DNA of 59,366 nucleotides from Paralimibaculum aggregatum (lineage in GTDB: Bacteria > Pseudomonadota > Alphaproteobacteria > Rhodobacterales > Rhodobacteraceae): positions 1 through 59,366 of the forward strand of contig NZ_BSYI01000030.1 of assembly GCF_030270585.1 (NCBI RefSeq), given 5' to 3'. Position 1 is the first letter of the stretch; every line of letters starts with the position of its first letter. Of this stretch, positions 30-16,764 are shown one piece after another. A model generated the notes under the pieces. It did not search any database. It was given only the letters and a program-made list of their open reading frames with translations, and was not told the origin of the DNA. Made by a program: the position numbers and the translations under genes.

Positions 30-482
30 TCAGGAGATCTTCTTGAGCAGCCGCACCAGCGTCTTGCGCTCGGCCGCGGTGAGCGGGCCCAGCGTCGCCT
101 GCGAGATCGCGCTGACATCGGCGCGCCGCCGCTCGGCCAGCGCGCGGCCCTCCGGCGTGACCTCGAGCAGGATGCGCCGGCGGTCGGTCTCGTCGCGATG
201 GCCGACCACCAGCCCGCGGGCCTGCAGCCGGTCGGCCACGCCCTTGATCGTCGCCACGTCCATCGCGGTGCGCCGGCCGAGCTCGTTCTGCGAGATCGGC
301 CCGTCCTGCGCCACCGTGACGAGCGCGGAGAACTGTGTCGGCGTCAGGTCGGTGACATGCTCGGAGAAGATCGCCAGGTGCCGCTGCTGCACGCGCCGGA
401 TCAGGAAGCCCACCTGCCGCTCCAGGCTCCAGTCCTCGCCCTCGGACGCTGTCTCCCTCGCCGTGTCCATTTCTTGATCCAT
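30..482 (-). CDS. MarR-family transcriptional regulator
   Basis: A 150-residue winged-helix regulator. The central part reads as a MarR fold: a helix around LTPTQFSALVTVAQDGP, the recognition region around NELGRRTAMDVATIKGVADRL and the wing motif HRDETDRRRILLEVTPEG. It is divergent from the molybdenum hydroxylase operon across a 280-bp intergenic region holding a promoter and an imperfect dyad. MarR proteins commonly repress adjacent aromatic or heterocycle catabolic genes; that it controls this pyridine island is inferred from position and from related operator sequences at three promoters. A second ATG lies four codons in; neither start has a strong Shine-Dalgarno sequence. The effector is unknown, with nicotinate or 6-hydroxynicotinate the obvious candidates. 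Confidence 0.9.
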   Translation of the reverse strand: MDQEMDTARETASEGEDWSLERQVGFLIRRVQQRHLAIFSEHVTDLTPTQFSALVTVAQDGPISQNELGRRTAMDVATIKGVADRLQARGLVVGHRDETDRRRILLEVTPEGRALAERRRADVSAISQATLGPLTAAERKTLVRLLKKIS

Positions 483-698: not shown

Positions 699-740
699 TT
701 GACAGGGCGGGCGAAGCGGATTTTGTTAGTGTGCAAACAA
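699..740 (+). promoter_or_regulatory. Promoter and MarR-type operator upstream of the molybdenum hydroxylase operon
   Basis: A consensus -35 (TTGACA, 699-704) is followed after 17 bp by a weak -10 (TTTGTT, 722-727). An imperfect dyad, TTGTTAGTGTGCAAACAA (723-740), overlaps the -10 and lies just before the ATG at 763. The same TTGTT-N-GTRTGCAAAC string recurs at 9448-9463, and a GTATACAAA version is at 15883. A repressor bound here would block RNA polymerase, which fits the neighbouring MarR gene; the pairing is inferred. Confidence 0.6.
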
Positions 741-762
741 TTTTTCCAACAGGGCTGGCGCG

Positions 763-1635
763 ATGGACTATCTTCTGGCGACGTCTCTGAACCAGGCACT
801 GGACGCCCTTGCCGACCCCGCCGCCGGGCTGCGGGTGGTGGCCGGAGGCACCGATGTCTATCCGGCGCTGCGCGACGGCGCGCTCACCGATCCGCTGCTC
901 GACGTCACCCGGGTGCCGGGGCTGCGCGGGATCGCCGAAACCGGGGCCGGCTGGCGAATCGGTGCGGCGACGACCTGGACCGACGTGGTGCGGGCGCCGC
1001 TGCCGCCCTGCTTCGACGGGCTGAAGGCGGCGGCGCGCGAGGTCGGCTCGATCCAGATCCAGAACGCCGGCACCGTGGCGGGCAATCTCTGCAACGCCTC
1101 GCCGGCGGCCGACGGGGTGCCGCCGCTGCTGGCGCTCGAGGCCAGCGTCGAGCTGCAGTCGCGCCGCGGCAGCCGGCTGGTGCCGCTCGGCGGCTTCGTC
1201 ACCGGCGTGCGGCAGACCGCGCGGGCGCCGGACGAGCTGGTGGTGGCGGTGCATGTGCCGCGCCGCCCGGCGGCGACGCGGAGCGCCTTCCTCAAGCTCG
1301 GCTCGCGGAAATACCTGGTGATCTCGATCTGCATGGTGGCGGCGGAGATCACCCCGGACGCGGCGGGCCGGGTGGCGCGGGCGCGGGTCGCGGTCGGCGC
1401 CTGCTCGCCGGTGGCGCTGCGGCTCGAGGCGCTGGAGGCCAGGCTCGCCGGCCTGCCGGCCACCGCGGCGGCGCTGACAGAGGCGGTGACGGCGGCGGAT
1501 CTCGCGCCGCTCGCCCCGATCGACGACATCCGCGGCGGCGCCGGCTATCGCCGCGACGCGGCGCTCGAGCTGGTGCGGCGCACGCTGGCGGCGGCGGCCG
1601 GCACCGGCGGCATTTCGGAGATGGGCCATGGATGA
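763..1635 (+). CDS. FAD-binding subunit of a xanthine dehydrogenase-family molybdenum hydroxylase
   Basis: A 290-residue medium subunit of the CoxM/XdhB/NdhF type, which passes electrons from the iron-sulfur clusters to FAD. The FAD-binding signatures are visible: AGGTDVYPALRDG near residues 27-39 and IQNAGTVAGNLCNASPAAD near 99-117. It overlaps the next gene by 8 bp, indicating translational coupling with the fused iron-sulfur/molybdenum subunit. In this context (6-hydroxynicotinate reductase and enamidase homologues downstream) the likely reaction is hydroxylation of nicotinate at C6, but substrate specificity cannot be read from this subunit. It is the first gene of the operon and lies just downstream of the operator. 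Confidence 0.93.
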   Translation: MDYLLATSLNQALDALADPAAGLRVVAGGTDVYPALRDGALTDPLLDVTRVPGLRGIAETGAGWRIGAATTWTDVVRAPLPPCFDGLKAAAREVGSIQIQNAGTVAGNLCNASPAADGVPPLLALEASVELQSRRGSRLVPLGGFVTGVRQTARAPDELVVAVHVPRRPAATRSAFLKLGSRKYLVISICMVAAEITPDAAGRVARARVAVGACSPVALRLEALEARLAGLPATAAALTEAVTAADLAPLAPIDDIRGGAGYRRDAALELVRRTLAAAAGTGGISEMGHG

Positions 1636-4426
1636 TTTCGCCGACCGCCCGACGGGCGCGCTGTCCTTCACGCTGAACGGCCGCGCGGTCGAGGTCGCGA
1701 GCCTGCCCGGCGAGCGGCTCTCGGAGACGATGCGCGAGCGCTGCGGCGCGCGCGACGTGAAGATCGGCTGCAATGCCGGCGATTGCGGCGCCTGCACGGT
1801 GCTGGTCGACGGCGCCGCGGTCTGCGCCTGCCTGACCCCGGCGCACCAGGTCGCCGGCGCCCGCGTCGAGACCGCGGCGGGGCTCGCCGCCGGCGATCCG
1901 GTGGCGGAGCGGCTGAAGGCCAGCTTCGCCCGCCGCGGCGCCGCGCAATGCGGGATCTGCACGCCGGGGATGATGGCCTCGGCGGTGGCGCTGCTGCGCG
2001 CGGTGCCGGCGCCGACCGAGGCCGAGGTGCAGGACGCGCTCGGCGGCGTGCTCTGCCGCTGCACCGGCTACCGCGCGATCGTCGAGGCGGTGGTCGCGGC
2101 CGGCCGCGGCGCGGAGCCGGCGCCGGAGATCGCCGGCCGGGTCGGCGCGGCCAGCGCGCGGATCGACGGCGCGCGCAAGATCGACGGCACCGAGCTGTTC
2201 GGCGACGATGTCGCCCCGGCCGATGCGCTGGTGGTGCGGGTGCTGCGCTCGCCGCATCCGCATGCCCGCTTCAGCTTCGGCGATCTCGACGGCTTCGTCG
2301 CGGCGACGCCGGGGCTCGACTGCATCCTGACGGCGGCCGACATCCCGGGCACGAACCGCTTCGGGGTGATCCCCGGCTTCCACGACCAGCCGGTCTTTGC
2401 CGAGGGCACGGCGCGCCATCGCGGCGAGGCGGTGGCGGCGCTGGTCGGCTCGGCCGAGGCGATGCGCGGGCTCGATCTCGCCGCGGTGCCGGTGACCTGG
2501 GAGCCGCTGCCGGCGAGCCTCACCATCGACGAGGCGCTGGCCGAAGGCGCGCCGCAGCTGCACGAGGCCGCCGCCGGCAACGTGATGTGCCGCGGGCTGG
2601 TGCAGAAGGGCGATGCCGAGGCGGCGCTGGCCGCGGCCGAGGTCACGGTCGAGGGCCGCTTCGTCACCAGCTTCGTCGAGCACGGCTATATCGAGCCCGA
2701 GGCGGGCTTCGCGCAGATGGTCGGCGACCGGCTCGAGGTGCATGCCTGCACCCAGGCGCCGGTGATGGACCAGGAGGCGCTGGCGATCATCCTCGGCCTG
2801 CCGAAGGCGCGCATCCGCATCGTGCCGACCGCGGTCGGCGGCGGCTTCGGCTCCAAGCTCGACCTCTCGGTGCAGCCCTTCCTGGCGCTCGCGGCGATGC
2901 GCACCGGGCGGCCGGTGCGGATCACCTATACCCGCCAGGAATCGATGCAGTCGACCACCAAGCGCCATCCCGGCGAGATCGTGCTGAAGATCGGCGCGAC
3001 GCGGGACGGGCGGCTCACCGGCTTCGACTTCGACGGCGCGTTCAACACCGGGGCCTATGCCTCCTGGGGGCCGACGGTGGCCAACCGCGTGCCGGTGCAT
3101 GCCTCCGGCCCCTATCACGTGGCGGATTACCGGGCGCGCTCGGCGGCGGTCTATACCAACTGCCCGCCGGCCGGCGCGTTCCGCGGCTTCGGCGTGCCGC
3201 AATCGGCGATCGCGCAGGAATCGCTGATGGACGAGCTGGCCGGGCGGCTCGGCATCGACCCGCTGGCGCTGCGCATGCAGAACGCGCTCGGCAACGGCCA
3301 GCCCACGGCGACCGGGCAGGTCTTCGAGCAGGGCGTCGGGATCGGCGCCTGCTTCGCGGCGCTGCAGCCCGGCTGGGCGCGCGAGCGCGCGGCGGCGGAG
3401 GCCTTCAACGCCCGCGCCGCGGCGCAGGGCCAGCCGCTGCGCCGCGGCGTCGGCGTCGCCGGCGGCTGGTATGGCTGCGGCAACACCTCGCTGCCCAACC
3501 CCTCCACCATCAAGTGCGGGCTGCGCGCCGACGGCACGGTGGTGCTGCACCAGGGCGCGGTGGATATCGGCCAGGGCTCCAACACGGTGATCGCGCAGAT
3601 CTTCGCCACCGCGCTCGGCGTCGGCATCGAGGCGCTGGCCCTGCTCGGCGGCGACACCGACATCACCCCCGATGCCGGCAAGACCTCGGCCTCGCGCCAG
3701 ACCTTCGTCAGCGGCAATGCCGCCCGGCTCTCGGCGCTGGCGCTGCGCGAGCGGATCCTGCGCCTCAGCAACGCCGCCGAGGATGCCGCGATCCGGCTCG
3801 ATCCGGGCTCCGGGCAGATCCGCATCGAGGATGGCGGGCAGGTCCACACCGTGGCGCTCGGCGACATGGCGGCGGATGCCGACGGCTATGTGCTCGCCGC
3901 CACCGAGAGCTGGGACCCGCCGATCAGCCCGCTCGACGCCAACGGCCAGGGCATCCCCTATGCCCAGTTCGGCTATGCCGCGCAGATCGCGGTGGTCGAG
4001 GTCGATACCCGGCTCGGCACGGTGCGGCCGCTGCGCTTCATCGCCGCCCATGACGTCGGCCGCGCGATCAACCCGATGCTGGTCAGGGGCCAGGTCGAGG
4101 GCGGCATCGCGCAGGGCCTCGGCATGGCGCTGATGGAGGAGTTCATCCCCGGCCGCAGCGAGAACCTGCACGACTACCTGATCCCCACCATCGGCGACAT
4201 GCCGGAGGTCGAGACGCTGATCGTCGAGGAGCCGGACGCGCACGGCCCGTTCGGCGCCAAGGGCCTCGGCGAGCACGTGCTGATCCCCACCTCGCCGGCG
4301 CTGTTCAACGCCGTGCGCCATGCCACCGGCGCACGGCTGACCCGGGCGCCGGCAACGCCGGAGCGGGTGCTCGCCGCGATTCGTGAAGCAGAGAGCCGCG
4401 AGGCGGAGACCGACCGCAATGTCTGA
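1628..4426 (+). CDS. Fused [2Fe-2S]/molybdopterin subunit of molybdenum hydroxylase (candidate nicotinate dehydrogenase)
   Basis: A 932-residue protein joining two normally separate subunits. Residues 1-165 form the 2x[2Fe-2S] part: the plant-type cluster in GCNAGDCGACTVLVDG (about 48-63), then QCGICTPGM (about 107) and VLCRCTGYR (about 140). From about residue 172 it is the molybdopterin-cytosine-dinucleotide domain, with VGGGFGSK near 403, GAFRGFG, the GQGSNT loop and KGLGE near 880, whose glutamate matches the catalytic base of the xanthine dehydrogenase family. With the upstream FAD subunit it makes a complete enzyme. Water-derived C6 hydroxylation of nicotinate is inferred from the neighbouring hnr and enamidase genes. 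It overlaps hnr by 8 bp. Confidence 0.92.
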   Translation: MDDFADRPTGALSFTLNGRAVEVASLPGERLSETMRERCGARDVKIGCNAGDCGACTVLVDGAAVCACLTPAHQVAGARVETAAGLAAGDPVAERLKASFARRGAAQCGICTPGMMASAVALLRAVPAPTEAEVQDALGGVLCRCTGYRAIVEAVVAAGRGAEPAPEIAGRVGAASARIDGARKIDGTELFGDDVAPADALVVRVLRSPHPHARFSFGDLDGFVAATPGLDCILTAADIPGTNRFGVIPGFHDQPVFAEGTARHRGEAVAALVGSAEAMRGLDLAAVPVTWEPLPASLTIDEALAEGAPQLHEAAAGNVMCRGLVQKGDAEAALAAAEVTVEGRFVTSFVEHGYIEPEAGFAQMVGDRLEVHACTQAPVMDQEALAIILGLPKARIRIVPTAVGGGFGSKLDLSVQPFLALAAMRTGRPVRITYTRQESMQSTTKRHPGEIVLKIGATRDGRLTGFDFDGAFNTGAYASWGPTVANRVPVHASGPYHVADYRARSAAVYTNCPPAGAFRGFGVPQSAIAQESLMDELAGRLGIDPLALRMQNALGNGQPTATGQVFEQGVGIGACFAALQPGWARERAAAEAFNARAAAQGQPLRRGVGVAGGWYGCGNTSLPNPSTIKCGLRADGTVVLHQGAVDIGQGSNTVIAQIFATALGVGIEALALLGGDTDITPDAGKTSASRQTFVSGNAARLSALALRERILRLSNAAEDAAIRLDPGSGQIRIEDGGQVHTVALGDMAADADGYVLAATESWDPPISPLDANGQGIPYAQFGYAAQIAVVEVDTRLGTVRPLRFIAAHDVGRAINPMLVRGQVEGGIAQGLGMALMEEFIPGRSENLHDYLIPTIGDMPEVETLIVEEPDAHGPFGAKGLGEHVLIPTSPALFNAVRHATGARLTRAPATPERVLAAIREAESREAETDRNV

Positions 4427-5915
4427 GACCCAGAGCAAGCCCGCCGCGGCGGGCAAGATCCGCTGCGATGCCTGCCCGGTGATGTGCTACATCGCCGAGG
4501 GCAAGTCCGGCGCCTGCGACCGCTATGCCAACCATGCCGGCGAGCTGGTGCGGCTCGACCCGCTCACCGTGATCGAGGCGCGCCAGGGCACCGAGGGCGG
4601 CGTCGTGCCGTTCCTCGAGGCCGGCGATCCGGAGGACTGGGACGGCGACCTGCTGGCCGGCCAGCGCAGCTTCCTCACCGCGGTCGGCGCCGGCACCACC
4701 TATCCCGACTACAAGCCGGCGCCGTTCATCGTCAGCCAGAAGGCGGGCGATGCCGACATGGTCACCGTGGTGACCGAGGGCATCTTCAGCTATTGCGGCG
4801 CCAAGGTGAAGATCGACACCGATCGCCATATCGGCGAGGAGCGCGCCGTGGTGCGGGTCGACGGCGAGCCGATCGGCCATGTCACCACCAGCGAATACGG
4901 CTCGAAGATGCTCGCCCTCGGCGGCGTCGAGCACCTGACCGGCGGCTCCAAGAAGGAGGGCCGGGTCACCTGCGACGCGCTGATGACGCTGTGCAACCGC
5001 GGCCCGGTGGAGATGACCATCGACGACGGCGCCCGGCTCACCGTGCAGGCCGGCAGGGCGCCGGTGATCGACGGCGACACCGAGCGGCTGATGCGCGTCG
5101 GCTGCGGCTCGGCGACCATCGGGATGTTCGCCAAGCAATGGGTCGACCATGTCGACGAGGTGGTGGTGGTCGACGACCACATCACCGGGGTGATGTCGGA
5201 GCACCAGGCCGGCAAGGTGCTCGACGTGCCGCCGACCGGCATCAAGATCAAGGGCCGGCGCTCGACCCCCGGGCGCTATTTCCAGGTGGCCGATCCCGGC
5301 ACCGGCTGGGGCGGCACCAACATCGACGACCCGCTGGCGATCCTCGGCCCGTTCGACGGGAAGCACGCGCGCCCCGGGCTGCGCATGCTGATGGTCTCCA
5401 CCACCGGCGAGCAGCACGCCTATTACGAGCTCGACGAGAACCTCGTGCCGGTGCCGGCGGCGCTGCCCGCGGCGCTGCAGGTCAGCGTCGACCGCATCGC
5501 CGAGAACTGCGAGCCCTCGGTCTGCTCGGTGCTGTTCATGGGCGGCGCCGGCGGTTCGCTGCGCGCCGGCGTCACCGAGAACCCGGTCGGGCTCACCCGC
5601 TCGGTCAAGGACCTGCTGACCTATGTCAGCTGCGGCGGCGCGCCGGCCTATGTCTGGCCCGGCGGCGGCATCACCATCATGGCCGATGTCGAGGCGATGC
5701 CGGAGGCCTCGTTCGGCTATGTGCCGACCCCGGCGATCGTCGCGCCGATCGAGTTCACCATGCGGCTGTCGGACTACCAGGCCCTCGGCGGGCACATGGA
5801 CGCGGTGGTCCGCATCGAGGATGCGCTGGCCAAGGCCGGGCGCCGCGTCGGCCGCGCCGAGGAGGCGCCCTGGCCGGTCGACGACCGGCTGTATCGCTGG
5901 GGGCGGCAGCGGTGA
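4419..5915 (+). CDS. hnr: 6-hydroxynicotinate reductase homologue (iron-sulfur flavoprotein)
   Basis: A 498-residue protein resembling 6-hydroxynicotinate reductase of Eubacterium barkeri, which reduces 6-hydroxynicotinate to 1,4,5,6-tetrahydro-6-oxonicotinate with low-potential electrons. An N-terminal [4Fe-4S]-type motif, Cys16-x2-Cys19-x3-Cys23-x9-Cys33, is clear. Further conserved cysteines occur in FSYCGAK, RVTCDALMTLC, RVGCGSA, CEPSVC and YVSCGGAP. The E. barkeri enzyme contains several Fe-S clusters and a covalently bound flavin; here GSLRAGVTENP (Thr386) is a possible attachment site, which is my inference. The chosen ATG overlaps the preceding gene by 8 bp; an upstream in-frame ATG at 4383 would only add residues inside the previous gene. 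It is followed immediately by an ApbE-like gene. Confidence 0.85.
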   Translation: MSETQSKPAAAGKIRCDACPVMCYIAEGKSGACDRYANHAGELVRLDPLTVIEARQGTEGGVVPFLEAGDPEDWDGDLLAGQRSFLTAVGAGTTYPDYKPAPFIVSQKAGDADMVTVVTEGIFSYCGAKVKIDTDRHIGEERAVVRVDGEPIGHVTTSEYGSKMLALGGVEHLTGGSKKEGRVTCDALMTLCNRGPVEMTIDDGARLTVQAGRAPVIDGDTERLMRVGCGSATIGMFAKQWVDHVDEVVVVDDHITGVMSEHQAGKVLDVPPTGIKIKGRRSTPGRYFQVADPGTGWGGTNIDDPLAILGPFDGKHARPGLRMLMVSTTGEQHAYYELDENLVPVPAALPAALQVSVDRIAENCEPSVCSVLFMGGAGGSLRAGVTENPVGLTRSVKDLLTYVSCGGAPAYVWPGGGITIMADVEAMPEASFGYVPTPAIVAPIEFTMRLSDYQALGGHMDAVVRIEDALAKAGRRVGRAEEAPWPVDDRLYRWGRQR

Positions 5916-8080: not shown

Positions 8081-9253
8081 TCAGCCGGCGACGATCTCCG
8101 GGATCGTCTTCGCCGGCGGGGTGTTGCGGCTGCGATGGCTGCGCACCACGCCGTCGATCACGGTCATGCCGACGCCCGGCAGGTTCCCGAGCTGCACCGA
8201 TTCGAGGATGGTGGCGCCCGGCGCGTGCTGGGCCTGGTCCATCAGCACGAAATCCGCCGCCCGGCCGACCTCGATGATGCCGCAGTCGAGCTCGCGCATC
8301 CGCGCGGTGTTGCCGGTGCCGAGGCAGAAGGCCAGCTCCGCCGGCAGGTCGCCGAGGCTGGACAGCAGCGCGATCATCCGCAGGATGCCGAGCGGCTGCA
8401 CGCCGGAGCCCGCCGGCCCGTCGGTGCCGAGGATGATCTGGTCGAGCTTGCCGAGCTCCCTGGCGGTGCGCAGGGTCAGCAGCGCCGCGCGCTCGTTGCC
8501 GTTGTGCACGATCTCCAACCCGGCCTGGCAGGCCTCGCAGATGCAGGTGATCTGGTCGTCCGGCAGCGCCGAATGCCCGCCATTGATGTGGCCGACGACA
8601 TCGGTGCCGGCCTCGAGCACCACGTCCTTGTCGATCAGCCCGGAGCCGGGGATCGAGGGGCCGCCGGTGTGGATCGTGCTCTGCAGCCCGTATTTGCGCG
8701 CCCATTCCACCATGCGCCGGGCGGTCGGCCCGTCCTTGACGCCGCCGAGCCCGACCTCGCCGAGCAGCTTGACGCCGGCATCCGCGAGGTCCTTGAAATC
8801 CTCCTCGACCATCTCGTGCTCGATCACCGGCGCGCCGGCATGGACCTTGACGCCGGAGGGGCGGAAGTTCTCGTACCAGCGCTGCGAGGCGATCGCGAGC
8901 GCCTTCAGCCCGACCACGTCCTTGGGCCGGCCGGGCAGATGCACCTCGCCGGCCGAGATCATCGTGGTGACACCGCCGTTCAGGGTCGAATCGATCCAGT
9001 GGAGCTGGTGCTGGCGGGGCGTGTAGTCGCCGATCACCGGGTGGACATGGCTGTCGATCAGGCCCGGCGCCAGCGTCACGCCCCTGGCGTCGATCACCGT
9101 GTCGGCGCCCTCGGCATCGATGTCGGCGGCGCGGCCGATGGCGGCGATGCGGCCGTCCTCGCAGAGCACCGTGTCGGCATCGAGGATGGGCTCTTCGAGC
9201 TTGCCCGAGAGCAGCAGCCCGATATTGCGGACGACGAGTCTGGATTGGGTCAT
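8081..9253 (-). CDS. ena: Enamidase homologue (amidohydrolase of reductive nicotinate degradation)
   Basis: A 390-residue metal-dependent amidohydrolase. It resembles E. barkeri enamidase, which opens 1,4,5,6-tetrahydro-6-oxonicotinate to ammonia and 2-formylglutarate. Matching segments include GLIDSHVHP, GDYTPRQ, NGGVTTMISAG, HLPGRPKD, GVKVHAGAP, GEVGLGG, IHTGGPSIPGSG, GHINGG, PLGILR, GTGNTA and SRNTPPAK at the end. The metal-binding HVH and later histidines and the aspartate in GTDGPAG are present. I chose the ATG at 9253 because AAGGAG lies upstream at good spacing; a longer frame to 9283 lacks support. It is convergent with the hnr operon and divergent from the TRAP operon, sharing its 281-bp control region. 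Confidence 0.88.
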   Translation of the reverse strand: MTQSRLVVRNIGLLLSGKLEEPILDADTVLCEDGRIAAIGRAADIDAEGADTVIDARGVTLAPGLIDSHVHPVIGDYTPRQHQLHWIDSTLNGGVTTMISAGEVHLPGRPKDVVGLKALAIASQRWYENFRPSGVKVHAGAPVIEHEMVEEDFKDLADAGVKLLGEVGLGGVKDGPTARRMVEWARKYGLQSTIHTGGPSIPGSGLIDKDVVLEAGTDVVGHINGGHSALPDDQITCICEACQAGLEIVHNGNERAALLTLRTARELGKLDQIILGTDGPAGSGVQPLGILRMIALLSSLGDLPAELAFCLGTGNTARMRELDCGIIEVGRAADFVLMDQAQHAPGATILESVQLGNLPGVGMTVIDGVVRSHRSRNTPPAKTIPEIVAG

Positions 9254-9422
9254 GGTCCCATTGCTCCTTGAACTGCGGATCAAACCTCTGTTGGCCTGCG
9301 AATGCGGCAGGCTGCCCGCCCGCCGCCGGGGCGGCGCATCCCGGCCCTGGCGCCGAGATTACCGCCTGCGCGCCCGAATCGATGCGTTTCCTGTCCCCTT
9401 CCACATCGGTTTCGGTTAGCGC

Positions 9423-9467
9423 TTGACAGCTCACGCTATCCGCCGGATTGTTCGTATGCAAACGAAT
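9423..9467 (+). promoter_or_regulatory. Promoter and MarR-type operator upstream of the TAXI-TRAP/nadC operon
   Basis: TTGACA (9423-9428) serves as the -35, with a weak -10 near 9446-9452. The -10 is overlapped by TTGTTCGTATGCAAAC, within which TTCGTATGCAAACGAA (9451-9466) is a near-perfect dyad, 14 of 16 positions symmetric. The motif matches the one at 723-740 in 14 of 16 bases and sits the same distance from its -35 box. It could also affect the divergent enamidase gene. Confidence 0.6.
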
Positions 9468-9534
9468 AAACTCGCGGCGTGAGCACCGACGAGAACCCTG
9501 GGGCGAGGGCCCCGTCAACAGCAGGGAGTCAGCA

Positions 9535-10545
9535 ATGACACAGACGACCGGACCATCCCGCACGCGGAAATATGCCTTCGCGGCCGCCACGATCGCCGCC
9601 GCGCTCGGCCTTTCCGCCCCCGCAGCGGATGCGGCGGACAACTACATCCTCTGCGGCGGCAGCCCGGGCGGGCTCTGGTCGCTGCTCGGCGCCGGCCTCG
9701 ACGCGGTGGTGAAGGCCGAGGACCCGAACGCCGCGGTCACCTACCAGACCTCGAGCGGCGGCTTCGCCAACATCGTGCAGATCAAGTCGGGCAAGTGCGA
9801 TCTGGCCATCGCGCATGTCGGCGAGGCGGTGATGGCGGCCAAGGGCGTCGAGCCCTTCCCGGCGCCGGTCGACGGCTTCGCCGCGGTGGCGGTGCTCTAC
9901 GACTGGGCGCCGATGCAGTGGATCGCCGACAAGGCCTGGGCCGAGGAGAACGGCATCGTCTCGCTGGCCGACCTGGCCGCGAAGAAGCCGGAGATGGACC
10001 TGGTGGTGAACCGCCGCGGCATCCTGCCCTCGATCCTCGCCGAGCGCTCGCTCGAGCTCTCCGGCACCAGCTTCGAGGACATCGAGAGCTGGGGCGGCTC
10101 GGTGCAGTTCGCCGGCTCGAAATCGGCCGCCCAGATCATGACCGACCGCAAGGCCGATGTCTGGGTCAACGCGATGTTCATCGGCGGCAGCCGGATCCGC
10201 GGCATCACCGATGTGCGCGAGACCACGCTGCTCTCGGTGCCGGCCGAGGTGACGGCGCAGATGGCCGAGGAATTCGGCTCGATGCCCTGGACCGTGAAGG
10301 CCGACGCCTATGACTGGCTCGACGGCGATGTCGAGACCTTCGGCGCCCGCGCGGTGCTGCTGATCTCCTCCGACGCCGACCCGGCCAAGGTCGAGGCGCT
10401 GACCGCGATGATCCTGAAGCACACGGACAAGGTGCAGAACGTGCACAAGGCGATGGCGCCGTTCGGCGGCGCGCTGATGTCCTCGCTGCAGGACGTGCCC
10501 TATCACCCGGGCGCCGCGGCGGCCTACAAAGCGGCCGGTCTCTGA
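9535..10545 (+). CDS. TAXI-family TRAP transporter solute-binding protein
   Basis: A 336-residue periplasmic receptor of the TAXI group. Residues 1-34 form a signal peptide (TRKYAFAAATIAAALGLSAP, cleavage probably after AADA). The TAXI signature region ILCGGSPGGLWSLLGAGL follows directly, then YQTSSGGFANIVQIKSGKCDLAIAHVGE. A GGGAG ribosome binding site precedes the ATG, which I preferred over an earlier in-frame start at 9448. Its stop overlaps the permease start. The operon also holds nadC and the R15P kinase/AMP-phosphorylase fusion, so a pyridine carboxylate such as quinolinate or nicotinate is a reasonable cargo, but this is inference. Confidence 0.9.
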   Translation: MTQTTGPSRTRKYAFAAATIAAALGLSAPAADAADNYILCGGSPGGLWSLLGAGLDAVVKAEDPNAAVTYQTSSGGFANIVQIKSGKCDLAIAHVGEAVMAAKGVEPFPAPVDGFAAVAVLYDWAPMQWIADKAWAEENGIVSLADLAAKKPEMDLVVNRRGILPSILAERSLELSGTSFEDIESWGGSVQFAGSKSAAQIMTDRKADVWVNAMFIGGSRIRGITDVRETTLLSVPAEVTAQMAEEFGSMPWTVKADAYDWLDGDVETFGARAVLLISSDADPAKVEALTAMILKHTDKVQNVHKAMAPFGGALMSSLQDVPYHPGAAAAYKAAGL

Positions 10546-12599
10546 TGCAGCGCGGCGCAGACAGCGATCCGGGCACGCGGGACCGCTCCGCGCCGCAGGA
10601 CGACGTGGCGGGCGCCGACGCGCCCGCTGCGGACGGCACGACGCCGGACGGCACCATCCCGGAGGTCGGCCCGGTCGCGGCCGGCGGCTTCTCGCTCGGC
10701 CGGCTCCTCTTCTCCACCGGCGCGCGGCGCCAGCTCGGCGGCCGGCTCGGCCTCGCGGTCAAGACCTATGCCGCCGGCGTCGCGGTCTGGACGCTCTACA
10801 GCGCCACGCTGGCGCGGATCGACCTGCTGGCGCTGACCGTGGTGTTCCTCTGCCTGATGCTGGTGCCGAGCTTCCTGGTGATCGGCGCCACCGAGCGCGC
10901 CGACCCGAAGCGCGCGACGATCCTCGATTTCGCGCTGGCCGCCGGCTCGCTCGCCTGCACGGTCTATTTCATCCTCACCGTCGACGACATCGCGACGCGG
11001 ATCAGCCTGCTGACACCGCTCAGCGAGGTGCAGTTCTTCTTCGCCGCGCTGGTGACGCTGCTGACCATCGAGATCACCCGGCGCTCGGTCGGGCTGCTGC
11101 TCTGCCTGATCGTGCTGGTCTTCATCGCCTACAACCTGTTCGGCGACACCATCGAGGGGCCGATGGGGCACGGCGTCATCACGCTGAACCATTTCCTCGA
11201 CATCAACGTCTACACCACCGACGGGCTGTTCGGCGTGCCGGTCGAGGTCTGCGCCACCTATGCCTTCCTCTTCGTGATGTTCGGCACCTTCCTCGAGCGG
11301 GCGCGCGGCGGCGACTTCTTCTTCGACATCGCCGCGGCGATCAGCGGCCGCAGCCCGGGCGGGCCGGCCAAGGTGGCGGTGGTCTCCTCGGCGCTGTTCG
11401 GCACGATGTCCGGCAGCCCGACGGCGGATGTCGCGACCACCGGCTCGATCACCATCCCGATGATGCGCCGCCTCGGCTACCGCCCGGCCTTCGCCGGCGG
11501 CGTCGAGGTCGCGGCCTCCACCGGCGGCAGCCTGCTGCCCCCGGTGATGGGCTCGGCGGCCTTCATCATGGCCGAGATCACCGGCATCGACTATCTCGAC
11601 ATCGCCGCCGCGGCGATCGTGCCGGCGCTGCTGTTCTATGCCGGGATCTTCGTGCAGGTGCATTGCCGGGCGCTGCGCGACGGGCTGCAGCCGCTGCCCT
11701 CGGACCGGCTGTCCAGCCTCGCCGGCACGCTGGCCTGGGGCTGGCCCTTCGTGATCCCGATCGCGGTGCTGGTCGGGGTGCTGGTCGAGGGCTATTCGCC
11801 GACCATGGCGGCGGCCTGCGCGACGCTGGCGCTGATCGTCTCCTCGCAGATCCGGCGCGACACCCGGCTGACCCCGGCGGCGATCTTCGACGCGCTGGCC
11901 AACACCACCTACCGGATGATCGGCGTCACCGGCGCCTGCGCCGCGGCCGGGCTGGTGATCGGCGGCATCACCATGACCGGGCTGGCGGCGAAGTTCTCCT
12001 ACATCGCCTTCTCCTTCGCCGGCGACAGCATGATGCTGGCGCTGCTGCTCAGCGCCGGGGTGACGATCATCCTCGGGCTCGGCATGCCGACGCCCAGCGC
12101 CTATGTGCTCTCGGCGGTGCTGATCGGGCCGACCCTGGTCAACGATTTCGGCATCCCGGCGCTCAACGCGCATCTCTTCCTGATGTATTTCGCGGTGCTC
12201 TCGGCGATGACGCCGCCGGTGGCGGTGGCGGCCTATTCCGCCGCGGCGATCGCCCAGGCCAACCCGCTGCTGATCGCGGTGACGGCGGTGAAGCTCTCGG
12301 TGGTGGCCTTCGTCGTGCCGATCGCCTTCACGCTCAGCCCCGACGTGCTGGCGCCCGGCTGGTCGCCCGGCGCCTGGGTCGGCGTCGTCAGCATGCTGCT
12401 CGGCACCGCCGCGGTCGCGGTCGCCGCCGAGGGCTGGATCCGCGGCGTGATGCCGGGCTGGATGCGCCTCGTGCTCGCCGCCGCCGGGCTGCTGCTGCTC
12501 GCCCCCGGCTTCCTGCTGCCGGGGATCGGCCTCGCCGCCGCCGGTGCGGTCGTCGCGCTCCGCCGCTCCGCCGCGGTCGCCGCGCCGCCGGCCGCCTGA
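10545..12599 (+). CDS. TRAP transporter fused permease (DctQM-type, TAXI-associated)
   Basis: A 684-residue integral membrane protein combining the small and large TRAP membrane subunits, as is usual with TAXI receptors. An N-terminal polar tail of about 60 residues precedes several hydrophobic helices. The DctM-like core carries segments such as MFGTFLERARGGDFFFDIA, SGSPTADVATTGSITIPMM, GLGMPTPSAYVLSA and YFAVLSAMTPPVAVAAY. It uses an ion gradient to import the ligand captured by the upstream receptor. The start codon overlaps the receptor stop by one base (TGATG). nadC follows after 43 bp on the same strand, so all four genes probably form one operon. Confidence 0.92.
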   Translation: MQRGADSDPGTRDRSAPQDDVAGADAPAADGTTPDGTIPEVGPVAAGGFSLGRLLFSTGARRQLGGRLGLAVKTYAAGVAVWTLYSATLARIDLLALTVVFLCLMLVPSFLVIGATERADPKRATILDFALAAGSLACTVYFILTVDDIATRISLLTPLSEVQFFFAALVTLLTIEITRRSVGLLLCLIVLVFIAYNLFGDTIEGPMGHGVITLNHFLDINVYTTDGLFGVPVEVCATYAFLFVMFGTFLERARGGDFFFDIAAAISGRSPGGPAKVAVVSSALFGTMSGSPTADVATTGSITIPMMRRLGYRPAFAGGVEVAASTGGSLLPPVMGSAAFIMAEITGIDYLDIAAAAIVPALLFYAGIFVQVHCRALRDGLQPLPSDRLSSLAGTLAWGWPFVIPIAVLVGVLVEGYSPTMAAACATLALIVSSQIRRDTRLTPAAIFDALANTTYRMIGVTGACAAAGLVIGGITMTGLAAKFSYIAFSFAGDSMMLALLLSAGVTIILGLGMPTPSAYVLSAVLIGPTLVNDFGIPALNAHLFLMYFAVLSAMTPPVAVAAYSAAAIAQANPLLIAVTAVKLSVVAFVVPIAFTLSPDVLAPGWSPGAWVGVVSMLLGTAAVAVAAEGWIRGVMPGWMRLVLAAAGLLLLAPGFLLPGIGLAAAGAVVALRRSAAVAAPPAA

Positions 12600-12642: not shown

Positions 12643-13479
12643 ATGTATGACAAGAGACGAGTTCGCCAGCTGATCGACCTGTGGCTGGACGAGGACACGG
12701 CGCATTACGACCTCACCGCGCAGATCATGGTCGAGCCCGGCAGCCGCGGCCGGTTCTTCTTCAACGCGCGGGAGCCCTTCGTGGTCTGCGGCGTCGAGGT
12801 GGCGGAGATGGTGCACCGGGCGGTGGACCCGGACTGCGGCTTCGAGATCAAGGTGGCCGACGGCACCCGGGTCGAGCCCGGCGCGGTGATCGCGGTGGTC
12901 GAGGGCGATGCCCAGGGCATCCTCACCGCCGAGCGGGTGGCGCTCAACCTGATGCAGCGGCTCTCCGGCATTGCCACGCTGACCGCGCGCTATGTCGAGG
13001 AGATCGCCGGCACCGGGGCCGAGCTGGTCGACACCCGCAAGACCACGCCGGGCCTGCGCATGCTGGAGAAGCACGCGGTGATGTGCGGCGGCGGGCGCAA
13101 CCACCGGCTCGCGCTCGACAACGGCATCATGCTCAAGGACAACCACATCGCGGTCTGCGGCAGCATCACCGCGGCGGTCGGGCGGGCCAGGGCGAAGGCG
13201 CCGCTGCTGACCAAGATCGAGGTCGAATGCGACCGGCTCGAGCAGGTCGAGGAGGCGCTGGCCGCCGGCGCCGACGTGATCATGCTCGACAACATGACCA
13301 ACGACGACATGCGCAAGGCGGTGGCGATGGCCGGCGGCCGGGTGCCGCTGGAATGCTCCGGCGGGGTGCGGCTCGAGACCATCCGCGCCAAGGCGGAGAC
13401 CGGGGTCGACGTGGTCTCGGTCGGGCGCATCACCCAGTCCGCCGCCTGCGTCGATATCGGCCTCGACGAAGCGGTGTGA
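12643..13479 (+). CDS. nadC: Nicotinate-nucleotide pyrophosphorylase (carboxylating), quinolinate phosphoribosyltransferase
   Basis: A 278-residue NadC: quinolinate + PRPP gives nicotinate mononucleotide + CO2 + PPi. The hallmark stretch starts near residue 130: DTRKTTPGLRMLEKHAV, then GGGRNHRLALDNGIMLKDNH, followed by KIEVEC, DVIMLDNM and LECSGGV. The HR and KDNH residues separate it from the related ModD proteins. It is not with nadA or nadB; instead it sits behind a TRAP importer and 2 bp before a fused R15P kinase/AMP-phosphorylase. That context argues for a catabolic role on exogenous or metabolic quinolinate rather than housekeeping NAD synthesis. The ATG at 12643 gives the family's usual length. 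Confidence 0.92.
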   Translation: MYDKRRVRQLIDLWLDEDTAHYDLTAQIMVEPGSRGRFFFNAREPFVVCGVEVAEMVHRAVDPDCGFEIKVADGTRVEPGAVIAVVEGDAQGILTAERVALNLMQRLSGIATLTARYVEEIAGTGAELVDTRKTTPGLRMLEKHAVMCGGGRNHRLALDNGIMLKDNHIAVCGSITAAVGRARAKAPLLTKIEVECDRLEQVEEALAAGADVIMLDNMTNDDMRKAVAMAGGRVPLECSGGVRLETIRAKAETGVDVVSVGRITQSAACVDIGLDEAV

Positions 13480-13481
13480 CC

Positions 13482-15545
13482 ATGCCGGGCTCCGCGCGCG
13501 ACCAGGGCAAGCTCGTCGTCATCGTCGGGCCGAGCGGCGTCGGCAAGGACACGCTCATCGACGGCGCACGGGCGCGGCTGGCGGAGAACCCCGCCTTCCG
13601 CTTCGCCCGGCGCTCGATCACCCGCCCGGCCTCGGCCGGCGGCGAGGCGCACCGGGAGATCACCCCGGAGGCCTTCGAGGCGGGCGTCGCCGGCGGCGCC
13701 TTCTTCGTCCACTGGACGGCGCACGGGCTCGGCTACGGCGTGCCGGTCGCGGTGCTCGAGGACCTGCGCGCCGGGCGCAACGTGGTGCTCAACGGCTCGC
13801 GCACCGCGCTGCCGGAGATCGTGGCGCGCGCCCGGGCCGAGGGCATCGAGGTGGCGCTGATCCATGTCGATGCCTCGCCCGAGGTCGTCGCCGCCCGGCT
13901 CGAGAAGCGCGGCCGCGAGAGCGCCGACGAGATCCGCGCCCGCCGCCAGCGCAAGCCGCTGGCGCAGGTCGAGGGCGTCACCGTCGCCACCGTGATCAAC
14001 GACGGCAGCGTCGAGGAGGGCATCGAGCGCTTCATCGCCGCCCTGCTCGGCGCCGCCAACCTGCCGCTGCGGCTGTTCCGCATCGCGCTGGCCCTCGGCG
14101 ACGAGCCGATCTGCGTGCTCAACGCCGAGTGCAACGTGGTGGCGGCGGCCAAGCTCGACGCCGCCTCGATGGTGGAGATCAGCTCCGGCGGGCGCACCGT
14201 GCGCGCCCGGGTGGCGATCACCACCGACGATGCGCTGGTGCCGCGCGACCGCGCCGCGCTCTCGCCGCGGGCCTTCGACGAGCTCGGCGCGGCGGAGGGC
14301 GACCTGGCCTGTTTCGAGCGCTCGCCCTCGCCGAAGAGCCGCGCCGTGCTGCGCAAGAAGGTGGGCGGCGGCGTGCTCGCCCCGGACGAGATCTCGCTGG
14401 TGATGCGCGACCTGATCGAGGGCCGCTATTCGCCGGCCGAGACCGCCGGCTTCCTGGTCTCGGCCTCGACCAATCTCGGCTTCGACGAGGTGGTCTCGCT
14501 GACCCGGGTGCGGGCCGAGCACATGGCCCGCTTCGCCTGGGATGCCGAGCGGGTGGTCGACAAGCACTCGATGGGCGGGGTGCCCGGCAGCCGGATCACG
14601 CTGATCGTGATCCCGATCGTCGCGGCGCAGGGGCTGATGATCCCCAAGACCTCGTCGCGCGCCATCACCTCCGCCGCCGGCACCGCCGATGCCATGGAGG
14701 CGGTCGCCCGCGTCGATCTCGACCGCGAGGAGATGCGCACGGTGGTCGAGCAGTGCGGCGGCTGCATCGTCTGGAACGGGCGGATCAGCCATTCCCCGAT
14801 CGACGACGTGATGAACGCGATCAACCGCCCGCTCGGGGTCTCCTCGCGCTATCTCGACGTCTCCTCGATCCTCTCGAAGAAGCTGGCGGCGGGGGCGACC
14901 CATGTGGTGATCGACCTGCCCGCCGGCCCCTCGACCAAGCTGCGCGACCCGGCCGATGCGAAGGAGCTGGCCGAGCTCTTCGAGCGCGTCGGCCGCGCGG
15001 TCGGGCTCGAGGTCTCGGCGCGGATCACCACCGGCGGCGCGCCGATCGGGCGCGGGGTCGGCCCGGCGCTCGAGGTGCGCGACGTGCGCGCGGTGCTCTC
15101 CGGCGATCCGGGCGCGCCGCGCGACCTGCGCGAGAAGGCGCTCGACTTCGCCGGCGCGCTGCTCGACTGGGACCCGCGCCTGCCCCCCGGCACCGGGCGC
15201 CAGCGCGCCGAGGAGCTGCTGCTCTCCGGCGCCGCGCTGGAGCGCTTCGAGGCCATCGTCGCGGCGCAGGGCGCGCGGGTGCCGGTGCAGCCGGGGGTGT
15301 TCTACCGCGAGATCGCGGCGCCGCGGCCGGGCCGCCTCGCCCGGCTCGACGGCTTCGCGGTGGCCGGCCTCGCCCGCGCCGCCGGCGCGCCGACCGACAA
15401 GTCCGCCGGGGTCGACATCCTGGCCGCGCCGGGCACCGAGCTGCGCGCCGGCGAGCCGGTGCTGCGCCTGCACGCGGCGGCGCAGAGCGCGCTCGACCGG
15501 GCGCTGAGCGAACATGACCCGGCCGGCGTTTTCGATATCGACTGA
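13482..15545 (+). CDS. Fusion: ribose 1,5-bisphosphate phosphokinase (PhnN-like) + AMP phosphorylase/thymidine phosphorylase-like domain
   Basis: A 687-residue two-domain protein in one uninterrupted frame. Residues 1 to about 185 match PhnN (ribose 1,5-bisphosphate + ATP to PRPP): Walker A GPSGVGKDT at 16-24, RSITRPASAGGEAH, LNGSR near 103, RLEKRGRES and NDGS. From about 190 it matches AMP phosphorylase/archaeal-type thymidine phosphorylase (nucleoside 5'-monophosphate + Pi to base + ribose 1,5-bisphosphate): KHSMGGVPGSR near 361, PKTSSRAITSAAGTADAME near 388, ITTGGAPIGRGVGPALE and PAPTDKSAG-like C-terminal segments. The product of the second domain is the substrate of the first, so the fusion is chemically sensible. 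Next to nadC, the obvious nucleotide substrate is nicotinate mononucleotide; that specificity is inferred. Confidence 0.88.
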   Translation: MPGSARDQGKLVVIVGPSGVGKDTLIDGARARLAENPAFRFARRSITRPASAGGEAHREITPEAFEAGVAGGAFFVHWTAHGLGYGVPVAVLEDLRAGRNVVLNGSRTALPEIVARARAEGIEVALIHVDASPEVVAARLEKRGRESADEIRARRQRKPLAQVEGVTVATVINDGSVEEGIERFIAALLGAANLPLRLFRIALALGDEPICVLNAECNVVAAAKLDAASMVEISSGGRTVRARVAITTDDALVPRDRAALSPRAFDELGAAEGDLACFERSPSPKSRAVLRKKVGGGVLAPDEISLVMRDLIEGRYSPAETAGFLVSASTNLGFDEVVSLTRVRAEHMARFAWDAERVVDKHSMGGVPGSRITLIVIPIVAAQGLMIPKTSSRAITSAAGTADAMEAVARVDLDREEMRTVVEQCGGCIVWNGRISHSPIDDVMNAINRPLGVSSRYLDVSSILSKKLAAGATHVVIDLPAGPSTKLRDPADAKELAELFERVGRAVGLEVSARITTGGAPIGRGVGPALEVRDVRAVLSGDPGAPRDLREKALDFAGALLDWDPRLPPGTGRQRAEELLLSGAALERFEAIVAAQGARVPVQPGVFYREIAAPRPGRLARLDGFAVAGLARAAGAPTDKSAGVDILAAPGTELRAGEPVLRLHAAAQSALDRALSEHDPAGVFDID

Positions 15546-15609: not shown

Positions 15610-15778
15610 AAGGGTTCCGGCCGAACCTTCCGGCCGGACCTTCCTGGGGAACCTTCCGGGCGGATCTTGCGGCCGGACCTTCTGGCCAAACCTTGCGGGC
15701 CGACCTTCCGGCCGGACCATTCGGGCCGATCTTCCCGTCAGACCTTCTCGGCCGACCTTGCGGGCGGACCATCCGGGC
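15610..15778. repeat. Degenerate 13-bp tandem repeat array (about 13 units)
   Basis: Thirteen consecutive 13-nt units can be cut without indels; the last twelve run exactly from 15623 to 15778. Examples: GAACCTTCCGGCC, GAACCTTCCGGGC, GGACCTTCTGGCC, CGACCTTGCGGGC, GGACCATCCGGGC. The consensus is close to GGACCTTCCGGGC. The arms of the preceding hairpin are also 13 nt and similar (GAACCTTTGTCCG), so both may have one origin. Frames read through it are proline/arginine/glycine-rich and do not look like a real protein. Confidence 0.8.
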
Positions 15779-15854: not shown

Positions 15855-15897
15855 TTGACCTCGCGGCCACGATAATTCATTTGTATACAAATGAATT
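15855..15897 (+). promoter_or_regulatory. Promoter with 24-bp perfect palindrome upstream of ferredoxin-NADP reductase
   Basis: A TTGACC -35-like box (15855-15860) is followed by a perfect 24-bp palindrome (15874-15897) centred on TTGTATACAA, with flanks AATTCAT and ATGAATT. It is very AT-rich against its surroundings. The core GTATACAAA (15883-15891) matches the cores at 729-737 and 9454-9462 and lies at a similar distance from the -35 box. It probably binds the same MarR-type regulator. Confidence 0.6.
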
Positions 15898-15951: not shown

Positions 15952-16764
15952 ATGGACCAGATCACGGGCCAGGCCCGCGAGGCCGCGCCGATCCCCGCCA
16001 ATGTCTTCGCCGAGACCGTGACCGCGGTCGAGCACTACACCGACCGGCTGTTCCGCTTCCGCATGACCCGGCCGCGGAGCCTGCGCTTCCGCTCCGGCGA
16101 GTTCGTGATGATCGGCCTGCCGGGGGCCGCGAAGCCGGTGTTCCGCGCCTATTCGATCGCCAGCCCGTCCTGGGACGAGGAGCTCGAGTTCTACTCGATC
16201 AAGGTGCCCGGCGGGCCGCTCACCGAGCATCTCCAGAAGATCCAGCCCGGCGACACGGTGCTGATGAAGAAGAAGCCCACCGGCACGCTGGTGACCGACG
16301 CGCTGCTGCCGGGCAAGCGGCTCTGGATGTTCTCCACCGGCACCGGGATCGCGCCCTTCGCCTCGCTGGTGCGCGACCCCGAGACCTACGAGAAGTTCGA
16401 CCAGGTGATCCTCACCCATACCTGCCGCGAGGTGGCCGAGCTGCGCTATGGCGAGACCCTGGTGGCGCAGACGCTGGAGGACCCGCTGGTCGGCGAGCTC
16501 GCCAGCGGCCGGCTCGTCCACTTCGCCACCACCACCCGCGAGGCGAGCCCGCGGATGGGCCGGATCACCGACCTGATGCGCTCCGGCGCGGCCTTCGAGG
16601 CGCTCGGCCTGCCGCCGATCTCGCCGGAGACCGACCGCGGCATGATCTGCGGCTCGATGGCGATGCTGAAGGAGACCAGGGCGATCCTCGAGGAGTTCGG
16701 TCTCGCCGAGGGCGCCAACAACCGGCCGGCGACCTTCGTGGTGGAGCGCGCCTTCGTCGACTGA
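15952..16764 (+). CDS. fpr: Ferredoxin-NADP reductase
   Basis: A 270-residue FAD-containing reductase of the bacterial Fpr type that moves electrons between NADPH and ferredoxin or flavodoxin. The FAD motif RAYSIASPSWDEELEFYSIKV (about 65-85), GPLTEHLQ and the NADP-binding segment MFSTGTGIAPFASLVRDPE are present, and the C-terminus ends VERAFVD, close to the family's usual tail. AGGAGGA precedes the ATG. It is monocistronic, 55 bp downstream of the palindromic operator. E. barkeri Hnr takes electrons from reduced ferredoxin, so co-regulation with the hnr operon would make this its electron supply; housekeeping oxidative-stress function is the alternative. Confidence 0.92.
   Translation: MDQITGQAREAAPIPANVFAETVTAVEHYTDRLFRFRMTRPRSLRFRSGEFVMIGLPGAAKPVFRAYSIASPSWDEELEFYSIKVPGGPLTEHLQKIQPGDTVLMKKKPTGTLVTDALLPGKRLWMFSTGTGIAPFASLVRDPETYEKFDQVILTHTCREVAELRYGETLVAQTLEDPLVGELASGRLVHFATTTREASPRMGRITDLMRSGAAFEALGLPPISPETDRGMICGSMAMLKETRAILEEFGLAEGANNRPATFVVERAFVD

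Follow-up and report, generated by a model that had tools for sequence, protein, structure and literature searches.

A 59,366-nt stretch of DNA from the alphaproteobacterium Paralimibaculum aggregatum (contig NZ_BSYI01000030.1, positions 1 to 59,366, assembly GCF_030270585.1; here called the window) carries an operon in which nadC, the gene for quinolinate phosphoribosyltransferase, is followed by a gene for a single protein joining a PhnN-like kinase to a nucleoside monophosphate (NMP) phosphorylase. From comparative sequence analysis, we consider it probable – at about 0.7 – that this operon is a quinolinate-utilisation module, feeding nicotinate catabolism through a cycle that recycles phosphoribosyl pyrophosphate (PRPP). 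Somewhat less firmly, we think that the cycle is probably an undescribed one, in which PRPP would be a catalytic carrier, nicotinate mononucleotide (NaMN) would be split by a dedicated phosphorylase, the carrier would be recharged in the same protein, NadC would act as a catabolic decarboxylase and a widespread protein named PhnN would in fact be an enzyme of quinolinate degradation.

The cycle would begin with the import of quinolinate by the TRAP transporter of the operon. NadC would then convert quinolinate and PRPP into NaMN, CO2 and pyrophosphate, a reaction established for its family; the phosphorylase domain would use phosphate to cleave NaMN, yielding nicotinate and ribose 1,5-bisphosphate (AMP, CMP and UMP are the known substrates of its archaeal relative); and the fused PhnN domain would close the cycle by converting ribose 1,5-bisphosphate and ATP into PRPP, as established for PhnN. 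The net reaction would turn quinolinate, ATP and phosphate into nicotinate, CO2, ADP and pyrophosphate, with PRPP serving as a reusable handle that enables decarboxylation at C2. Nicotinate would subsequently pass to the hydroxylase, Hnr and enamidase; in the window, the promoters of this route bear the same operator-like site. While we infer both the phosphorolysis of NaMN and the complete cycle, the direction of flow suggested in the initial annotation – quinolinate in, nicotinate out – agrees with the comparative evidence from shared operator-like sites, the occurrence of nadC without nadA, a Bug27-like receptor and changed base-pocket residues.

The nadC gene and the fusion protein

The arrangement originally proposed, with nadC followed after 2 bp by one protein containing PhnN-like and AMP-phosphorylase-like domains, is borne out by both the coordinates and the scores against curated models. 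The 278-residue nadC product matches TIGR00078 over its full length in a profile search (323.4 bits, cut-off 198.4) and contains both the QRPTase_N and the QRPTase_C domain of Pfam. The fusion gene, starting at 13482, 2 bp past the nadC stop, is a single open frame of 687 residues. Its residues 9–188 score 182.4 bits with the PhnN model TIGR02322 (cut-off 156), and the nucleotide-binding motif is intact, with G16, G19, G21, K22 and D23 conserved at 97% or more across 80 fusion proteins.

The remainder of the protein exceeds the cut-offs of PRK04350 (residues 197–677; 572.6 bits, cut-off 434) and TIGR02645 (residues 205–676; 465.1 bits, cut-off 434.6). Among PDB structures, the archaeal AMP phosphorylase 4ga5 is the best match of an AlphaFold2 model of the fusion (mean predicted local distance difference test score 88.9, predicted template modelling score 0.68), 4ga4 being matched too, and the phosphorylase fold is confirmed by this predicted structure. 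The label 'AMP-phosphorylase-like' thus holds for fold and family but not for the more specific assignment: with the AMP phosphorylase equivalog TIGR03327, the fusion falls short of the cut-off (400.9 bits against 535), and in place of the AMP-type E448, I445 and L437 the window protein has N448, N445 and H437. Just 3' of the fusion gene, at 15615–15776, lies a 13-bp tandem repeat, TTCCGGCCGGACC, in 12.5 copies with 71% matches.

These pocket residues set the fusions apart as a group. When 80 fusions were compared with 45 non-fused phosphorylase relatives, R344, S363, N432, H437 and N445 were found in 80/80 (N432 and H437 belonged to the search pattern for most loci, and were already invariant in eight fusions found by similarity alone), whereas the non-fused relatives have M (44/45), C (45/45), G (44/45), L (43/45) and I (43/45) at the corresponding positions. 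At position 448 the fusions have T, N or V and all 45 relatives E, as has the archaeal enzyme at the aligned place. By a count made by hand, Y199 and R202 of human thymidine phosphorylase, which we take to line the base pocket, are the counterparts of residues 445 and 448. Losing an acidic residue and gaining polar or basic ones would suit a base that bears a carboxylate, such as nicotinate.

NadC has its own signature. In a tree of 91 sequences, the 81 module copies are separated from 10 others – second copies of three fusion genomes among them – by a split with values of 99/97, for which the program issued a long-branch warning. Residue 265 (window 13435–13437) is Q in 81/81 module copies and H in 9/10 others, while R132, K133, R155, K165 and H168 are alike in both groups.

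Distribution and gene order

Scanning named genomes with a fusion-specific segment yielded 138 relatives, 80 of which were kept as loci; similarity searches, covering 385 genomes of the class and 398 of the phylum, added seven fusion genomes (three of them also among the 80 loci), and in 7/7 nadC adjoins the fusion. Hosts include Bosea, Jiella, Azorhizobium, Rhodoplanes, Xanthobacter, Cupriavidus, Caballeronia, Variovorax and Pseudomonas. In 77 of the 80 loci nadC lies 5' of the fusion on the same strand; two of the other three (L153 and L167) start where a contig does, and the third, L209, is taken up below. The gap between the two genes is 50 bp or less in 63 of 73 measured loci and 133–231 bp in four. 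Because the order of nadC followed by the fusion recurs in alpha-, beta- and gammaproteobacteria, it goes beyond chance. A single frame encodes both enzyme domains in 76/80 loci; L153 is cut, and in L135, L184 and L207 nadC, phnN and the phosphorylase gene are separate neighbouring frames, which we count in favour of the proposed module. A full-length match to the fusion was seen neither in 148 further genomes sampled from the family nor in 4 others of the genus, and no relatives came from viral contigs scanned with the fusion and with NadC, or from a genome-contig scan with a single fusion sequence.

Plasmids carry the module as well. That of Pacificitalea manganoxidans has the TAXI, TRAP, nadC and fusion genes in the order seen in the window, and on a Variovorax plasmid, genes for a MarR protein, NadC, a TctC receptor and the fusion, there called PhnN, accompany phenol- and catechol-degradation genes. 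Public records label the fusion (L234:13959–16085 and L235:13998–16151) 'phosphonate metabolism protein/1,5-bisphosphokinase (PRPP-forming) PhnN', a name that hides its phosphorylase domain. No phosphonate genes stand among the annotated neighbours of these two plasmid copies, no systematic search having been made elsewhere.

Non-fused phosphorylase homologues keep other company: 0 of 17 such loci have a match to nadC, hnr, ena (the enamidase gene) or NicC, while a beta-CASP nuclease-like gene occurs in 13/17 and a prs gene in 7/17. We considered, and set aside, the possibility that the fusion phosphorylase serves RNA turnover as an ordinary NMP phosphorylase, as tblastn with one query each found neither prs nor beta-CASP genes in the 80 fusion loci.

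Two further gene types were observed around the module. Genes with an FRG domain (PF08867), forming two clusters of which one representative each was tested, lie near it in 16/80 loci (L134, L139, L142, L144, L145, L150, L159, L204, L169, L171, L172, L181, L183, L185, L199 and L200), and one is annotated on the Variovorax plasmid (L235:11481–12290). Directly 3' of the fusion, L074:7322–8524 gives a weak SIR2-like match; L113:7479–8684, at the same place, is alike by eye only.

Operator-like sites

The promoters at 723 and 9448 in the window have a palindrome in common, TTGTTNGTNTGCAAACNAA, of which 0.02 would be expected in shuffled windows. The pattern, composed from these two sites, occurs at 11 sites in 20 other loci and at 0 in the same loci shuffled, and many of the other-locus sites precede nadC or a gene for Hnr, enamidase, NicC or a hydroxylase. 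Seven pattern-picked sites, located 5' of such catabolic genes (hnr, ena, NicC or hydroxylase) in other loci, were made into a matrix, which marks three places on the 59-kb window at 27.9–28.0 bits, the next non-overlapping place scoring -1.0; the site at 15877, missed by the pattern at 3 mismatches, was recovered in this way. Such a site stands 33–145 bp before nadC in 23/81 other loci, compared with 11/800 random windows and 27/1745 low-GC windows away from nadC. The nicotinate genes and the module may thus form a nicotinate-catabolism regulon, although the matrix that marks their operator-like sites is derived from a window pattern. The likely regulator would be the MarR protein encoded in the window, to which members of a MarR family found in 27/80 fusion loci show identities of up to 50%.

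Nicotinate, NAD and transporter genes across genomes

Genes for Hnr, enamidase or NicC lie within about 10 kb in 22/80 fusion loci; hnr and nadC are divergent neighbours in six loci, 340–387 bp apart, and in one genome (G810) the nadC–fusion pair adjoins NicC (PDB 5eow, E 1e-170). Whole-genome searches compared 58 fusion genomes with 22 controls, which were hand-picked alphaproteobacteria unmatched by phylogeny – 12 with a non-fused phosphorylase and 10 others. Hnr was found in 37/58 fusion genomes and NicC, at a threshold of at least 50% identity, in 20/58; 56/58 have at least one and a single genome both, Hnr and NicC representing two different nicotinate routes. At the same threshold, NicC was found in 0/22 controls.

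NAD genes were compared in the same genomes. Although nadA is present in only 26/58 fusion genomes and missing in 32/58, nadC exceeds its cut-off in 58/58, and thus in all 32 that are without nadA, whereas among the controls nadC exceeds it in 10/10 with nadA and 0/12 without. At least two nadC copies over the cut-off occur in 16/26 nadA-bearing fusion genomes, and in 18/58 fusion genomes overall.

Transporter genes are frequent companions, their family names resting on one representative each. TAXI receptors occur within about 10 kb in 20/80 loci (nine at 52–55% and 11 at 28–32% identity to that of the window), NMT1-type ABC receptors in 23/80, TctC receptors in 12/80 and MFS genes in 9/80; 63/80 have any of these. 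The TctC protein beside one module, the only one compared, matches Bug27 (2qpq, E 4e-107). According to Sorci et al. 2024 (PMC11452294), Bug27 and Bug69 have an affinity of about 0.1 µM for quinolinate in vitro, and Bug27 favours quinolinate over nicotinate and nicotinamide.

In the source genome (5.5 Mb in 201 contigs, 98.7% complete), the single quinolinate phosphoribosyltransferase gene detected is the nadC of the window. Its nadA and nadB sit on another contig, and a nadC-like sequence was not found in the 12-kb nadAB stretch; in a congeneric genome, nadC and nadA are about 1.7 kb apart. The simplest reading is that the nadC of a horizontally acquired module would have replaced an older nadC. 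The initial annotation had also raised the case of this nadC being the sole copy for NAD synthesis together with nadA and nadB; of this, the first part applies, as it is the only nadC detected and both partners exist, but it is not clustered with them.

Weighing the readings

Several observations count against a module for quinolinate utilisation. As the only nadC detected, with nadA and nadB present elsewhere, that of the window must also provide NaMN for NAD synthesis, with which an NaMN phosphorylase would compete in the source strain; a lone nadC over the cut-off is found in 10/26 nadA-bearing fusion genomes, this one included. Retention of nadC without nadA is not independent of the nadC–fusion gene order. 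Some 1 kb separates nadC and the fusion in six Cupriavidus loci, and two of the 17 non-fused loci (L078 and L081) have, beside the phosphorylase gene, a sequence with 35% identity to the kinase domain but no nadC. In 58/80 fusion loci, the surrounding 10 kb or so are devoid of hnr, ena and NicC. In two genomes, G894 and G939, neither Hnr nor NicC reaches the thresholds applied; the latter is a Pseudomonas, and the 20-kb locus that holds its fusion (L209:8783–10825) is without nadC. Hnr occurs in 10/22 controls (1/10 of the others) and, because 9/12 of those with a non-fused phosphorylase have it, we have demoted Hnr co-occurrence as main evidence; the excess of fusion genomes over these controls is modest (Fisher P 0.03), and the genome-wide association of the fusion with Hnr or NicC is suggestive, not decisive. 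As for the operator, 58/81 loci are without a match before nadC, several of the 23 matches are near-identical Bosea-type sequences, and the matrix depends in part on the window, its sites having been chosen with a window-derived pattern. Finally, PMC11452294 describes Variovorax bug27 as adjoining nadC and phnN, interpreting this as NAD metabolism, and reports unimpaired growth on quinolinate after bug69 knock-out.

This interpretation points to the best-surviving alternative, namely NAD salvage from external quinolinate, with NadC making NaMN for NAD and the fusion yielding PRPP via ordinary NMP phosphorolysis and subsequent phosphorylation of ribose 1,5-bisphosphate. It resembles the reading of nadC–phnN–bug27 by Sorci et al. 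2024 (PMC11452294), who place Bug27/Bug69, nadC and phnN in NAD metabolism and cite growth with quinolinate as the sole NAD precursor, and it would accommodate the 32/58 fusion genomes without nadA, the lone nadC of the source genome and the kinase-like gene of L078 and L081. We nevertheless regard it as unlikely, given that operator-like sites are common to the module and nicotinate-degradation genes, that 16/26 nadA-bearing fusion genomes have at least two nadC over the cut-off, that the base-pocket residues of the fusions are unlike those of AMP-type phosphorylases and that one plasmid copy sits among phenol- and catechol-degradation genes.

Less likely still is a draining role of the phosphorylase, in which it would remove NaMN arising from quinolinate or from the turnover of NAD, limiting the NAD pool or recycling ribose, with nicotinate breakdown as mere disposal and quinolinate no growth substrate. 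A source genome with NadA and NadB can make its own quinolinate, and an operator shared with nicotinate breakdown fits disposal too, but the transporter genes near 63/80 modules and the two or more nadC of 18/58 fusion genomes point to import. That module NadC acts on another pyridine carboxylate, and the module hence serves a different substrate, is very improbable, since its separate place in the tree (99/97), fixed changes such as Q265 and the variety of transporter classes are set against residues such as R132, K133, R155, K165 and H168 that are the same in both NadC groups, a TIGR00078 score well over the cut-off and the preference of Bug27 for quinolinate in vitro reported in PMC11452294.

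Neighbouring genes in the window

The hydroxylase, Hnr and enamidase genes initially noted next to the module (Table 1) prove real, given the 2vun match of the enamidase, the presence of 3hrd among the matches of the hydroxylase and the annotated homologues of Hnr. The best PDB matches of the molybdenum hydroxylase are aldehyde oxidoreductases, nicotinate dehydrogenase 3hrd standing lower in the list. For Hnr, searches of Pfam, NCBIfam and PDB gave no match; 26 plasmid records are 60–80% identical to it, and several are annotated as 6-hydroxynicotinate reductase. The ferredoxin-NADP reductase-like product, for which genes about 50% identical occur in 4/80 fusion loci, might supply reductant for Hnr.

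Table 1. Features of the module and its surroundings in the window
Feature	Position	Strand	Basis
MarR-family regulator (candidate for the three operator-like sites)	30..482	-	Pfam MarR
Operator-like palindrome TTGTTAGTGTGCAAACAAT before hydroxylase–hnr operon	723..741	+	28.0 bits, matrix of 7 other-locus sites
FAD subunit of molybdenum hydroxylase	763..1635	+	XdhB-type families, below cut-off
Iron–sulphur–molybdenum hydroxylase large subunit (nicotinate hydroxylase by context)	1628..4426	+	PDB matches including 3hrd
Hnr, 6-hydroxynicotinate reductase	4383..5915	+	Annotated plasmid homologues
Enamidase	8081..9283	-	PDB 2vun, E 8e-106
Operator-like palindrome TTGTTCGTATGCAAACGAA between enamidase and TAXI-TRAP-nadC-fusion operon	9448..9466	+	27.9 bits, same matrix
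TAXI-type TRAP solute-binding protein (predicted quinolinate binder, putative ligand)	9532..10545	+	TIGR02122 over cut-off
TRAP fused permease	10545..12599	+	TIGR02123 over cut-off
NadC, quinolinate phosphoribosyltransferase (predicted decarboxylating step)	12643..13479	+	TIGR00078 over cut-off; module-linked NadC clade
PhnN–NMP phosphorylase fusion protein (predicted NaMN phosphorylase and ribose-1,5-bisphosphokinase)	13482..15545	+	Profile, alignment and structure matches
Kinase domain, residues 9–188, Walker A-like GPSGVGKD	13506..14045	+	TIGR02322 over cut-off
Phosphorylase domain, about residues 205–676	14094..15509	+	TIGR02645 over cut-off; 4ga5
Segment with N432, H437, N445 and N448, distinguishing the fusion group (residues 432–448)	14775..14825	+	Alignment
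Operator-like palindrome TCATTTGTATACAAATGA before ferredoxin-NADP reductase-like gene	15877..15894	+	27.9 bits, same matrix
Ferredoxin-NADP reductase-like gene	15952..16764	+	PRK10926 132.7 bits, below cut-off 390

Significance and comparison with known systems

Quinolinate is a neuroactive product of tryptophan. If the quinolinate-utilisation reading is true, bacteria would consume it through transient ribosylation, NaMN phosphorylase would be a new activity in a known enzyme family, and the phosphonate-metabolism label of the fusion in public records would be corrected. A biosynthetic NAD enzyme would moreover be used in breakdown – in the source strain with one NadC for both.

The initial annotation named no described pathway of this kind, and searches of an open-access library found none, the nearest account being PMC11452294, with its reading of nadC–phnN–bug27 as NAD metabolism. 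The quinolinate salvage of Bordetella and streptococci treated there resembles the module in its use of NadC and external quinolinate, in the Bug27/Bug69 receptors and in the Variovorax nadC beside phnN. However, where NAD synthesis and salvage use NadC to supply NaMN, the module is predicted to split NaMN to nicotinate for breakdown, and the word phosphorylase does not appear in the main text of PMC11452294.

With the archaeal NMP (AMP) phosphorylase of the pentose bisphosphate pathway (4ga5; PMC9700705), the fusion shares its fold, type of reaction and ribose 1,5-bisphosphate as predicted product. It differs in its base-pocket residues and in scoring below the AMP phosphorylase cut-off; furthermore, the archaeal pathway passes the product to an isomerase and Rubisco, whereas the kinase of the fusion would make PRPP instead. 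This kinase domain, over the TIGR02322 cut-off, is like the PhnN of phosphonate degradation, but unlike it is joined to a phosphorylase. With nicotinate catabolism – through hydroxylase, Hnr and enamidase or through NicC – the module has both neighbourhood and operator-like sites in common; the known routes have nicotinate as their starting point, and the module would let quinolinate enter them as well.

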